Origin: an uncultured Flavobacteriales bacterium
Lineage (GTDB): Bacteria; Bacteroidota; Bacteroidia; Flavobacteriales_D; Crocinitomicaceae
Reading direction: 5' to 3'
DNA: 64,000 nucleotides
NCBI GenBank assembly: GCA_913054135.1
Contig: CAJXJK010000003.1
Span: forward strand, 62,001 to 126,000
Part shown: positions 3,545 to 18,841 of the stretch, piece after piece
Layout: every line of letters begins with the position of its first letter
Numbering within the stretch: the stretch's first letter is position 1
The notes under the pieces: generated by a model
Seen by the model: only the letters and a program-made list of their open reading frames with translations
The model's database searches: none
Told to the model about the DNA's origin: nothing
Position numbers and translations under genes: made by a program

Positions 3545-4435
3545 GTGAAGCAATTAAACATTGTCATATTACTTTCAGTATTGGTTTTTGGCCAGAATTC
3601 ATTTGGTCAGAACTATTCATACAAGAAAAAGTTTGGGACTCAAAAGAATGCAATGTATTTCTATTGGGGATATAACAGAGCTGCCTTCACAAGAAGTGAC
3701 ATCCATTTTGTGGGTGAAAATTATGATTTCACAATAATCAAAGCAGCAGCAAAAGATAGACCTGCCACAGAATTCAAAACATACGTTACACCTTCAACGC
3801 TAACTGTTCCCCAATTTAATGTTAGGGTTGGTTGGTATTATAAACATAGATGGGATTGGTCAATAGGTTATGATCACATGAAATATGTGATGCGAGATTG
3901 GCAGCAAGTTTACATTAACGGATACATTGATCCAAATTCAAATAGTGAACTAAATGGAGAGTTTACAAATGAAGACGGTAAGCTGTTTATTGATCCCGAT
4001 TTTATACATTATGAAAACACGAACGGATTAAATTACATTTCAGTTCAACTCAACAATACTGCTCCTATGTACAAAACAAACGACAGAAAGTTTGCAGTAC
4101 AAAGAAGAGTTGGTGGTGGAATTGGACCAGTAATCACACAAACAGATTTTGTTTGGGATTCAGAACAATATCATTCAGGAATGAAATTAGGTGGATGGGG
4201 AATATCTGCTCATATGGGAGTTCGTTTCGATTTCTTCAATCGCTTTTTTATTGAGAATACTTTTTCTGGTGGTTTCATTCACTTGCCAAGAAATGCTACT
4301 ATCGTTAGAGGAAGCACAAGAGATAATGACTATGCAAATCATAAATTCGTTTATGGTCAGTGGCAAATAACTGCAGGAGTACTTTGGTACTTAAGAAATA
4401 AAAATGGCTGCGGAACTTGCCCGGATTGGCATTAG
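3545..4435 (+). CDS. outer-membrane beta-barrel protein
   Basis: 296 aa. The start is the GTG at 3545, because an in-frame TAA lies at 3536-3538 and the signal peptide begins at once (MKQLNIVILLSVLVFGQNSFGQ). The mature part alternates aromatic and polar residues (AMYFYWGYNRAAF, VRVGWYYKHRWDWSIGYDHM, ITAGVLWYLRNK), as in a transmembrane barrel, and ends in a short GCGTCPDWH tail rather than a terminal phenylalanine. GGWGISAHMGVRFDFFNRFFIENTFSGG is typical of Bacteroidota outer-membrane proteins. The specific function is unknown. Element A lies directly downstream. Confidence 0.65.
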   Translation: MKQLNIVILLSVLVFGQNSFGQNYSYKKKFGTQKNAMYFYWGYNRAAFTRSDIHFVGENYDFTIIKAAAKDRPATEFKTYVTPSTLTVPQFNVRVGWYYKHRWDWSIGYDHMKYVMRDWQQVYINGYIDPNSNSELNGEFTNEDGKLFIDPDFIHYENTNGLNYISVQLNNTAPMYKTNDRKFAVQRRVGGGIGPVITQTDFVWDSEQYHSGMKLGGWGISAHMGVRFDFFNRFFIENTFSGGFIHLPRNATIVRGSTRDNDYANHKFVYGQWQITAGVLWYLRNKNGCGTCPDWH

Positions 4436-4506
4436 TTTTATTCGGGCCTTTGGGCCAGTAGAGCCTTATCGTAAATTTCAACTTCAATTATACTTTCATT
4501 GTTTGG

Positions 4507-4847
4507 GTTCGTTCACAAGAGCTACGCCTTGTTGTTCGTTCGGCGTCTCGTTTTGATAAATCAAAACTGACGCCTTTTCGTGCGTTCAAAGTTTGCCAAA
4601 GCAAACTTTTCTCTTTTCGTTTTCGAAATGACAAATGAATCCTAAGTTATTTTGTGAATGAGCATGGAGATTTGTTCTTAACATTCTCCAGATCTTCCAC
4701 TCTCGCACCCCAAAACATTTGTCCAACCGAAAATCGAAGAGTGAATCACTTTGGCTCAGCCAAATGATGAACGCACGAAAAGGCTTTGCAATTGCGCGAG
4801 CAATTGTATAAGCCGAACGAACAAGTCGGCGAAGCCCGACTGAACGA
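4507..4847. repeat. paired-hairpin element A (two inverted ~130-bp units)
   Basis: Left arm 4507-4637 on the plus strand and right arm about 4718-4847 on the minus strand are inverted copies of one unit. Read outside-in, a unit is GTTCGTTC, hairpin 1, T-GTTCGTTCGGC, hairpin 2, GCCTTTTCGTGCGTTC, hairpin 3, a C/T-rich run containing TTCGnTTTCG, then GACAAATG. In the left arm: hairpin 1 is ACAAG/CTTGT (4515-4532); hairpin 2 has TTTTGAT/ATCAAAA (4551-4566); hairpin 3 is a perfect 9-bp stem (4588-4609). In the right arm: hairpin 3 at 4745-4768, hairpin 2 at 4789-4806, hairpin 1 at 4824-4841. About 80 bp of unrelated sequence lie between the arms. The same design recurs at 18303-18634. No protein is encoded. 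Origin and function are unknown. Confidence 0.85.
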
Positions 4848-4922
4848 GTCTCCACCATGAAGCAAGAAATAACTAATTTCGCATCCACAACATTAATAAA
4901 AACCTCAACGCCTCGAACAAAA

Positions 4923-5693
4923 ATGAACCTAATCGATACACATACCCATCTCTTTGCAGAACAATTCAATGAAGATCGTGACGATATTATCAAGTCAGCT
5001 TTAGAGGCAGGAGTTTCAAAGATGTTATTGCCAAATATCGATTTAGACTCAATTGAAGCCATGCATCAGTTAGAGAAAGATTACCCTGAAAACTGCATTG
5101 CCATGATGGGATTACATCCTTGTTCAGTCACTGAAAATTGGGAGTCAGAACTTGAGGTAATTAAATCACATTTGTTCAGCAGAAAATATATTGCTGTTGG
5201 GGAAATTGGCATGGACCTTTATTGGGACAAGACTAGTTTGCCATTTCAACAAAAAGCATTTGCACAACAAATTGAGTGGGCCAAAGAATTGGGGATTCCG
5301 ATTGTGATTCACGTGAGAGATGCATTTGATGAGGCTTTTGAAATAGTGGACGAATTGAATGATGATAGCTTAAGAGGAGTGTTCCACTGCTTCACTGGTA
5401 ACATTGATCAAGCAAATCACATTTTAAATTATGGTGGATTTAAATTGGGGTTGGGTGGAGTCTTGACTTTCAAGAATTCTGGTTTGGATAAAACGATTTC
5501 TGATATAGGCATGAAACATCTGATTCTAGAAACAGACTCGCCGTACTTGGCTCCCCATCCAAATAGAGGGAAAAGAAACGAGACATCATTCATAACTTAT
5601 GTAGCATCTAAACTTGCCGAAGTAAAAGGGGTGAGTATTGAGAATGTGGCAGAAATCACCTCTCAAAATGCAATAGAACTTTTTAATTTATAA
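4923..5693 (+). CDS. tatD: TatD family metal-dependent hydrolase / 3'-5' DNase
   Basis: 256 aa from the ATG at 4923, where the family consensus begins (MNLIDTHTHLF); the frame is open upstream to 4857 but that stretch is unrelated sequence next to element A. Metal ligands of the TIM barrel are visible: H7 and H9 (DTHTH), Glu in VGEIGMDLYW, His in PIVIHVRDA, His in GVFHCFTG, Asp in LETDSPYLAPHPNRGKRNE. TatD enzymes are two-metal nucleases/deoxyribonucleases linked to DNA repair and turnover. It is not in an operon here, being bounded by repeats on both sides. Confidence 0.92.
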   Translation: MNLIDTHTHLFAEQFNEDRDDIIKSALEAGVSKMLLPNIDLDSIEAMHQLEKDYPENCIAMMGLHPCSVTENWESELEVIKSHLFSRKYIAVGEIGMDLYWDKTSLPFQQKAFAQQIEWAKELGIPIVIHVRDAFDEAFEIVDELNDDSLRGVFHCFTGNIDQANHILNYGGFKLGLGGVLTFKNSGLDKTISDIGMKHLILETDSPYLAPHPNRGKRNETSFITYVASKLAEVKGVSIENVAEITSQNAIELFNL

Positions 5694-5703
5694 TTCTATC
5701 AAT

Positions 5704-5730
5704 TGTCAGTCTGAGCCTGTCGAAGACTAG
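5704..5730 (-). repeat. GACA-hairpin repeat, left copy (minus orientation)
   Basis: On the minus strand this reads CT-AGTCT-TCGACAGGCTC-AGACT-GACA: a 5-bp stem around an 11-nt loop, followed by GACA. It lies 11 bp after the tatD stop and 43 bp before the broken GIY-YIG gene. The right copy at 6061-6086 has the same loop and GACA but a different stem that still pairs (ACACT/AGTGT). Repeats containing CTTCGACARGCTCAG are known to me from many bacterial genomes; that is recollection, not a search. Confidence 0.8.
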
Positions 5731-5772
5731 ATGAAGAGATACTCAGCCATTATTTATCCCTAACTTTAAGAG

Positions 5773-6051
5773 ATGCAAAAAGCTTACTTCGTTTAAATCT
5801 TAGAATGTTCTGATGGCTCTTACTATACTGGTGTTACGAATGACATTCAACGAAGACTAAAAGAACATCACATTGGCATTAACACTGAATGTTATACTTA
5901 CAAAAGAACACCTCTAGAATTAGTTTTTCAGGAAGTTTTTGCTGATGCAAATCAGGCAATCAAAGCAGAGAAAAGGCTAAAAGGATGGGGACGGAAGAAG
6001 AAGCAAACTCTAATAAATAAAGGTTGGGAAGCTATTAAGAACAATGAGTAA
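5773..6051 (+). pseudogene. GIY-YIG nuclease (UPF0213/YhbQ-like), nonsense-disrupted
   Basis: The frame from the ATG at 5773 to the TAA at 6049-6051 encodes a complete small GIY-YIG domain of 92 codons except for a TAA at codon 8 (5794-5796). Around the stop the translation is MQKAYFV-stop-ILECSDGSYYTGVTND. Normal members have Tyr there (VYIL), so one base change (TAT or TAC to TAA) explains it and destroys the first catalytic tyrosine. The rest looks intact: YTGVTND, RRLKEH, CYTYKRTP, QAIKAEKRLKGWGRKKK. There is no usable start between the stop and the second motif. The gene sits between two inverted GACA-hairpins, with only 9 bp from its stop to the right one. The otherwise perfect frame suggests recent inactivation, or less likely readthrough. 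Confidence 0.85.
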
Positions 6052-6060
6052 AATATCAGC

Positions 6061-6086
6061 TACACTTCGACAAGCTCAGTGTGACA
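6061..6086 (+). repeat. GACA-hairpin repeat, right copy (plus orientation)
   Basis: Reads CT-ACACT-TCGACAAGCTC-AGTGT-GACA, with the last G of CAGTGTGACA completing the foot. It is inverted relative to the copy at 5704-5730, so both GACA feet point away from the GIY-YIG gene. Three positions differ between the two copies within the stem strands and all are compensated, while the loop differs only at one purine. The remaining 185 bp to the asparaginase start (6087-6271) show no gene. Confidence 0.8.
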
Positions 6087-6271
6087 GGGCCTAGCGAACA
6101 AAAAACAGCTTGCTGTACTTCCATCAGAATAAATCAAACCCACCACAGAATCAATTGCCCCATTAATTTCATTATGTAAGTGTTTACTTTGTGATTGGTC
6201 TTTTGAAAGGCGCCTAAGCTTGAGAAATTGTTTTAATTTCGAATGTTTAATTTAGATAAAGACCGAACGTA

Positions 6272-18130: not shown

Positions 18131-18145
18131 TGCTGTGCAAAGTTA
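18131..18145 (-). promoter_or_regulatory. candidate purH promoter (-7 element TAACTTTGC)
   Basis: On the minus strand TAACTTTGC (18145-18137) matches the Bacteroidota -7 consensus TAnnTTTG and lies about 34 bp before the purH ATG. I could not find a good TTTG/TTG -33 element at the right distance, so this is only a candidate. Confidence 0.4.
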
Positions 18146-18302
18146 GAACATAAAAGGGATATATTAATTTTAAAGGCTTCAGAAAACCGTTTTTTTTAAT
18201 AAGTGTGGCCTTTTGTTAATTATTCGTGGTTGTTCGGGCGCAATGGAGTTGAATTTGGGCTGAAATTTCTTGTTGAAGTCTTGCCTTTTTTTGAATGTCG
18301 GG

Positions 18303-18634
18303 GTTCGTTCGTGCTAGCTTCGCAGCACTGTTCGTTCGGCTTTGCGAATTTCTTTGAAATTCTGAAGCCTTTTCGTGCGTTCAAAGTTCGCCTTAGGCAA
18401 ACTTTTCTCTTTTCGTTTTTCGACTTGACAAATGGGTTATTAGGAAAACCATGAGGTGGTGAAGTCTGGATATTCTGAATTCCAACCAAACCTTAATGCA
18501 ATTAACCAAGTCGAAAAACGAAGAGTGAGTCACTTTGGCAGAGCCAAATGACGAACGCACGAAAAGGCTTGCTCTTTGATTTATCAAAGTGTCAAGCCGA
18601 ACGAACAGCCCGGCGATAGCTCGGGCGAACGAAC
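18303..18634. repeat. paired-hairpin element B (two inverted ~130-bp units)
   Basis: Second copy of the element at 4507-4847. Left arm 18303-18434, right arm 18509-18634 inverted. Backbone blocks GTTCGTTC, T-GTTCGTTCGGC and GCCTTTTCGTGCGTTC are conserved in both arms and with element A. Hairpin 1 is GTGCT/AGCAC (18311-18328) on the left and GCCCG/CGGGC (right arm orientation, 18608-18626). Hairpin 2 is GAATTT/AAATTC (18346-18362) and CTTTGAT/ATCAAAG (18574-18589). Hairpin 3 is at 18383-18405 and 18529-18552. The loop of hairpin 1 is AGCT(W)CGC-like in all four arms. The element lies between divergent purH and the sigma-factor gene. The rest of 18104-18841 shows no gene. Confidence 0.85.
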
Positions 18635-18841
18635 TCAATCGCCCTCAGAATTATCAGACTTTGATTCAAACCCAAACATCCTAATCAAACCCAACGCCCA
18701 AATTTTAACACATCTTAACTGTTACCAAACAACAATCCTGGCATTACATGGTTAATTGAGGTAAGAAACTCATTCATTGATTAAAATTGTCACTTTGATG
18801 AAGTTTTAAAATATTACAGTAACATAAGCGTCTAAAGAGAT

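Follow-up and report, generated by a model that had tools for sequence, protein, structure and literature searches.

Two palindrome-shaped non-coding elements with sequence-held blocks and pairing-held hairpins, shared by two species of a Crocinitomicaceae genus

Introduction

REPINs consist of two inverted REPs and are moved by RAYT tyrosine transposases, and integron attC sites are folded single-strand recombination sites with an unpaired base in the stem and a box of the form GTTRRRY. At a smaller scale, d(GCGAAGC) is an unusually stable DNA mini-hairpin. REPINs are described in one account as conserved inverted blocks enclosing a middle of which only length and base-pairing are preserved and in which compensatory changes are common (PMC3116915), REP hairpins are reported to carry the tags GTAG / CGTC at their feet (PMC3733652), and the other attC box is given as RYYYAAC (PMC8632094).

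Here, we describe elements A and B, two non-coding, palindrome-shaped copies in the genome of an uncultured Flavobacteriales bacterium (GCA_913054135.1; Crocinitomicaceae), both located in a 64,000-nt stretch of contig CAJXJK010000003.1 (positions 62,001 to 126,000), hereafter the window. Each is an inverted pair of arms with near-identical blocks and with hairpin stems that differ in their letters yet pair. The elements are real and structurally constrained, and they match no named family among those tested.

Results

Read inwards, each arm runs P1, H1, P2, H2, P3, H3, P4, and each half of an element is built from a terminal repeat of ~14 bp, a free spacer of 52-56 nt, the series from P1 to P4 and a free centre (Table 1), for a total length of ~400-477 bp. 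The P blocks of opposite arms pair with each other, with Watson-Crick pairs at 172 of 184 inter-arm positions of P1-P4 in A, B and two elements of a sister genome (G109, below), and hairpins H1, H2 and H3 bud off between them on both sides. Because A and B are near two-fold symmetric palindromes, a ladder of four-way junctions can form from either strand. Blocks P2 (TGTTCGTTCGGC) and P3 (GCCTTTTCGTGCGTTC) do not vary among the four arms of A and B, as the original prediction had said of all the blocks; the first block, P1 (GTTCGTTC), departs from this with two differences in arm A2 (ACTCGTTC).

The terminal inverted repeat, near TTCGGGCSTTGAGG, lies 66-70 nt outside P1 in 8 of 8 arm flanks (A, B and the G109 pair). 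Its sites were chosen by eye ahead of a held-out profile test, in which a profile trained on A and B gave this site the top rank in all four G109 flanks (p 0.001, 0.001, 0.0015 and 0.0625), and the reverse profile, trained on G109, did so in 4 of 4 A and B flanks (p 0, that is 0 of 2,000 shuffles; 0.0075, 0.0215 and 0.033). Since these repeats lie beyond the arms, the full elements extend over ~4441-4917 and ~18233-18702, so that the first placement of element A at 4507-4847 picked out a real element and drew it too narrowly, the arms by themselves covering 4507-4849. To the left of A, a gene with no Pfam match stops at 4435, to the right tatD starts at 4923, and the element takes up most of the space between them. 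The mechanically called tatD frame (4857-5693) begins inside A; the TatD match and the aligned relatives fit the start at 4923, just beyond the terminal repeat.

The original prediction quoted all four H1 stems and loops correctly. On the opposite strand, the loops read GCGTAGC (A1), GCGAAGC (A2 and B1) and GCGATAGC (B2), with one unpaired base adjacent. Among the four G109 arms, GCGAAGC and the unpaired base occur together in two, and H1 is longer in the other two (by eye), and the H1 tip is at most one change away from GCTTCGC in 7 of 8 arms (by eye). The conserved tip with its unpaired base is plausible as a putative protein-recognition feature.

Table 1. Coordinates of elements A and B and their parts within the window
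Feature	Coordinates	Strand	Remark
Element A, whole	4441..4917	.	477 bp, terminal repeat to terminal repeat
A left terminal inverted repeat	4441..4454	+	TTCGGGCCTTTGGG; 66 nt from P1
A arm 1 P1	4507..4514	+	GTTCGTTC
A arm 1 H1	4515..4532	+	
A arm 1 P2	4533..4544	+	
A arm 1 H2	4545..4571	+	
A arm 1 P3	4572..4587	+	
A arm 1 H3	4588..4609	+	
A arm 1 P4	4610..4619	+	
A arm 2 P4	4735..4744	-	
A arm 2 H3	4745..4768	-	
A arm 2 P3	4769..4784	-	
A arm 2 H2	4785..4811	-	
A arm 2 P2	4812..4823	-	
A arm 2 H1	4824..4841	-	tip GCGAAGC on + strand
A arm 2 P1	4842..4849	-	ACTCGTTC, two differences
A right terminal inverted repeat	4904..4917	-	TTCGAGGCGTTGAG (minus strand); 68 nt from P1
Element B, whole	18233..18702	.	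470 bp, between divergent purH and sigma-70-type gene
B left terminal inverted repeat	18233..18246	+	TTCGGGCGCAATGG; offset 70 nt
B arm 1, whole	18303..18415	+	
B arm 1 P1	18303..18310	+	
B arm 1 H1	18311..18328	+	
B arm 1 P2	18329..18340	+	
B arm 1 H2	18341..18366	+	
B arm 1 P3	18367..18382	+	
B arm 1 H3	18383..18405	+	
B arm 1 P4	18406..18415	+	
B arm 2, whole	18519..18634	-	
B arm 2 P4	18519..18528	-	
B arm 2 H3	18529..18552	-	
B arm 2 P3	18553..18568	-	
B arm 2 H2	18569..18595	-	
B arm 2 P2	18596..18607	-	
B arm 2 H1	18608..18626	-	
B arm 2 P1	18627..18634	-	
B right terminal inverted repeat	18689..18702	-	TTTGGGCGTTGGGT (minus strand); offset 68 nt

Folded as DNA, A (4507-4849) reaches z -11.4 and B (18303-18634) z -14.3, with 0 of 100 shuffles as good in either case, and the six most stable of 1,273 segments of 350 nt across the 64 kb, allowing for G+C, all overlap A or B. 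Scaled to their own genome (3,940 segments from 400 kb outside the window), A has z -7.1 and B z -8.2, and the best background segment -3.55. Block P3 has four exact copies in the window and five matches at ≤3 mismatches against 0.38 expected, a number reached by 0 of 100 shuffles. A 400-kb sample from G107, a genome of the same genus with the elements absent at both junctions, has a best segment at z -4.9, a more extreme score than that of any segment in the host sample. Two clusters read in the G107 sample were rejected as relatives, one being tandem terminator-like hairpins and the other terminator-like or long plain hairpins, each with a different layout. In one G107 stretch (L153, ~3700-4000), an intergenic array of near-identical tandem units, ~113 nt long by hand count, has a strong terminator-like hairpin in every unit.

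The sister genome G109 (Bacteroidia bacterium 3_bin.27, same genus) has both elements, and with them four further arms, at the same junctions as A (gene without a Pfam match/tatD) and B (purH/sigma gene). Across the eight arms, 175 of 200 cells are paired and 18 of 25 pairs show two-sided changes, which 0 of 500 shuffles reach, these shuffle counts not being probabilities because the arms are related; for covariation the score is 0.646, where six slid versions give 0.064-0.141, the scored structure having been derived from the same sequences. Two of the eight H3 hairpins are shifted in the MAFFT alignment from which the covariance model (R1) and the pair counts derive. Further copies with stems that do not co-vary had been named as what would refute the original prediction, and the stems of the G109 copies co-vary too.

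Constraint differs along the arm. Between species, identity is 0.96 for P2 and 0.91 for P3, and stands at 0.60 for the spacer, 0.56 for H2 and 0.57 for the centre, against 0.59, 0.55 and 0.55 for shuffled letters. Despite this lack of residual similarity, H2 forms a better hairpin than chance in 8 of 8 arms (each p < 0.03); H1 does so individually in 4 of 8 arms and H3 in 5 of 8 (p < 0.05). Fisher chi2 values, from rows that are related and not independent, are 43.2 for H1, 76.1 for H2 and 54.4 for H3. The spacer halves show no overall hairpin excess (15.5 and 11.6 on 16 df), with 1 of 16 halves at p < 0.05. The best reading is that the blocks are held by sequence and the hairpins by pairing; the description of the repeat as conserved by structure and not by sequence thus applies to the hairpins, and the blocks are conserved by sequence. 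In G109, a T of P3 is replaced by G and P1 starts with C, each in 4 of 4 arms.

That covariation means selection on folding, as first stated, is too strong, since template switching can, as one study reports, create and maintain stems, and mutation of this kind can yield compensatory changes (PMC8794818). On such an account, template switching would mend the sides of the stems and recombination between arms or loci would even out the blocks, so that the hairpins are paired by mutation. Exchange among copies would agree with it, identity within a genome exceeding that between species for P1, H1, H2, H3, P3, P4 and the centre (the difference is ≤0.01 for P2, spacer and terminal repeat), as would a perfect 13-nt inverted match, rarer than chance (reached by 9 of 5,000 shuffles) and possibly a template-switch trace, that links positions 18172-18184 in the purH flank to 18360-18372 in B arm 1. 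We nevertheless judge this account quite unlikely: template switching should affect the spacers too, it cannot by itself hold P2 and P3 at their observed levels across species with spacers at random level, and the H1 tip is kept in nearly all arms. Template switching alone predicts neither spacers poor in hairpins nor cross-species conservation of the blocks; we therefore prefer selection acting on both blocks and pairing, with template switching perhaps supplying the compensating changes.

Both junctions are also present in G107 and G108, of the same genus, with the element absent at each, as would follow either from a gain on the branch of the carriers or from a loss on the other branch. The arm with the type-1 H3 faces purH in B and the sigma gene in the G109 counterpart, and this flip, together with the within-genome excess of identity, makes it seem that element copies exchange and flip parts.

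Relatives were sought at increasing distance. In the family (240 genomes), the exact gapped pattern matches the host genome only and R1 matches the host and G109; among 399 genomes of the order, R1 again matches these two only, and a DNA search finds them and one weak match; among 395 genomes of the class, R1 matches the host plus two weak matches (G493, E 5.1e-4; G683, E 0.0078) without the layout. The layout is also absent, by eye, from the weak DNA match G061 (E 7.1e-4) and from a match on the host's own contig C9 (E 0.027). A pattern scan of 84,980 species returned 19 stretches, two of them in G109 and 17 judged unrelated (ten from one Prevotellaceae palindrome family, seven isolated and judged chance by eye). 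In viral contigs, eight stretches with an exact P3 have no P2 block or hairpin layout in the ~180 nt around the match, and the gapped pattern occurs in five stretches, all of them near-identical copies of a single different sequence; blastn against plasmids and phages gave no match. Further relatives are thus absent from 1,675 genome visits (overlapping sets) and the one 84,980-species pattern scan, a result in which a strongly diverged relative could be missed, as R1 was built from eight arms of two genomes and stricter filters applied in the large searches. The covariance-model search of Bacteroidota genomes first proposed has accordingly yielded the same-genus G109 and no other relative with the layout, and as far as searched the element is lineage-restricted.

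Among described systems, REPINs share with A and B the inverted blocks, the pairing-only middle, the extragenic position and a predicted single-stranded DNA fold. A and B differ in having three hairpin tiers per side, terminal repeats, a length of several hundred base pairs and two copies in their own genome instead of many dispersed ones. GTAG/CGTC is absent from their hairpin feet, blocks ending in TTC or GGC/GGT preceding the hairpins in the eight arms (by eye), and RAYT (Y1_Tnp) occurs in the host genome but not in the carrier G109. On the best reading, the elements are REPIN-like in logic, but they fall outside the REPINs by their copy number, by the missing tag and by the lack of a RAYT in one of the two carriers. 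Like attC sites, they are imperfect palindromes in which the fold is kept rather than the sequence, but RYYYAAC/GTTRRRY is not shared by their eight end repeats (by eye) and they are far longer. They also differ from bidirectional terminators, as B lies between divergent genes and no T-run directly follows the outer stem of A or B (by eye).

The Prevotellaceae palindromes from the pattern scan (ten stretches, L070, L074, L075, L078, L082-L086 and L088, in two genomes) have a ~26-bp repeat near GGCTAAATCTTATTTTGAGGTGCTAT and inner hairpins. They resemble A and B in their internal hairpins and in TTCGTTCGGC...CCTTTTCGTTCG, for which the search pattern selected, and differ in a terminal repeat of other length and sequence and in hairpin layout; the likeness is probably chance. 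In a literature search largely limited to non-subscription papers, no title or abstract opening describes the element, and the earlier view that no named family has this layout stands for the families tested and for Rfam at gathering score.

MITEs and other fold-back elements are likewise non-coding, with terminal inverted repeats (8 of 8 flanks here) and element-free junctions in relatives, and these features would suit an ordinary decaying MITE-like palindrome without a present role, conserved through recent reinsertion or exchange. We find this improbable, since the same two sites are occupied in two species whose spacers can no longer be aligned and whose blocks and hairpins are kept, and since the searches made returned no further copies. 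The pairing-only constraint on the hairpins and the shared positions of both copies in the two species also set A and B apart from such elements. No target-site duplication is recognisable by eye in the four elements, the flanks of which have diverged, and a terminal-repeat pattern search of the host and G109 found no MITE parent element: at ≤1 mismatch, it gave 9 matches in the host (reversed control 2) and 4 in G109 (reversed control 5), and a facing partner within 1.5 kb at ≤2 mismatches was seen only for the known G109 element (L106/L108) and one overlapping palindrome (L113/L114).

Y1_Tnp (PF01797) matches number one in the host genome, three in G107, one in G108 and none in G109, which is 93% complete; with one carrier lacking Y1_Tnp and two non-carriers having it, a RAYT link is rejected. 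The five Y1_Tnp loci, tried as partners, hold one TTCGTTC, no P3 core and no GCTTCGC tip, and the Y1_Tnp profile found no linked transposase or HUH enzyme in these four genomes. A GIY-YIG domain (PF01541, E 1e-13) lies at 5700-6090, ~0.9 kb from A, in a frame with an in-frame stop that is bounded by inverted copies of a CTTCGACARGCTCAG-type repeat, different from the repeats of A; the same place in G109 has inverted CTTCGACARGCTCAG-type copies around ~100 bp with no GIY-YIG seen (by eye). The original prediction suggested looking for a linked nuclease or transposase gene; no partner enzyme was found within this scope. The segment that A and B flank contains purH and genes that by eye resemble mreBCD/rodA.

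The elements could instead encode a structured RNA of ~340 nt, transcribed from their own or a neighbouring promoter, with the fold selected in RNA. The strong covariation across eight arms would be expected of it, and on the strand with the type-1 arm first the long-range stems hold 6 G-T against 1 A-C, a bias that leans towards RNA, the events being few and partly shared by descent. Several observations make an RNA unlikely all the same. Near two-fold symmetry lets both strands fold, G-U accounts for only 3 of 175 paired cells, and the hairpin mismatches on the type-1-first strand show no strand preference (5 G-T to 6 A-C, or 4 to 4 without the H1 unpaired base, scored three times as a mismatch). 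The type-1-first strand is reversed relative to the neighbouring genes between B and its G109 counterpart, and 0 of 4,227 Rfam families match over the window at gathering score (3 and 5 sub-gathering matches up to E 5, the best at E 0.14). By simple pattern, no TANNTTTG box occurs inside A or B; the sole one in two scanned stretches is that of purH (18138-18145), kept in four aligned genomes. As B lies between divergent genes and upstream of this box, A and B share no transcription context. A DNA role is weighed above an RNA role, without certainty, so that, of the two candidates first offered, a folded DNA fits somewhat better than a structured RNA.

Discussion

We see about an even chance that A and B are an old, non-autonomous fold-back DNA element of mobile-palindrome descent that works as folded DNA read by a protein. 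A mobile palindrome would have entered the ancestor of the two carrier species, and the element would work as a cruciform or as an exposed single strand. The protein would read the P blocks and the H1 tip, with H2 and H3 needing only to pair, and parts would be swapped and evened out by recombination of the arms with one another and of A with B. Old idle insertions should decay, so the upkeep of the element suggests a present local role, and the retention of the same two sites in sister species speaks for a DNA structure that is being preserved and against ordinary junk in decay. A more specific and doubtful proposal is that of a domesticated 'junction ladder', a lineage-specific folded DNA with a dedicated putative protein reader at two fixed places, in which the block would serve as address and the hairpins as scaffold.

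Covariation statistics alone cannot separate selection on folded DNA, RNA function and template-switch mutation. Within 340 bp, the arms combine two kinds of constraint, blocks held letter by letter and hairpins held by pairing only, and the elements are a compact test case for setting these three explanations against one another.
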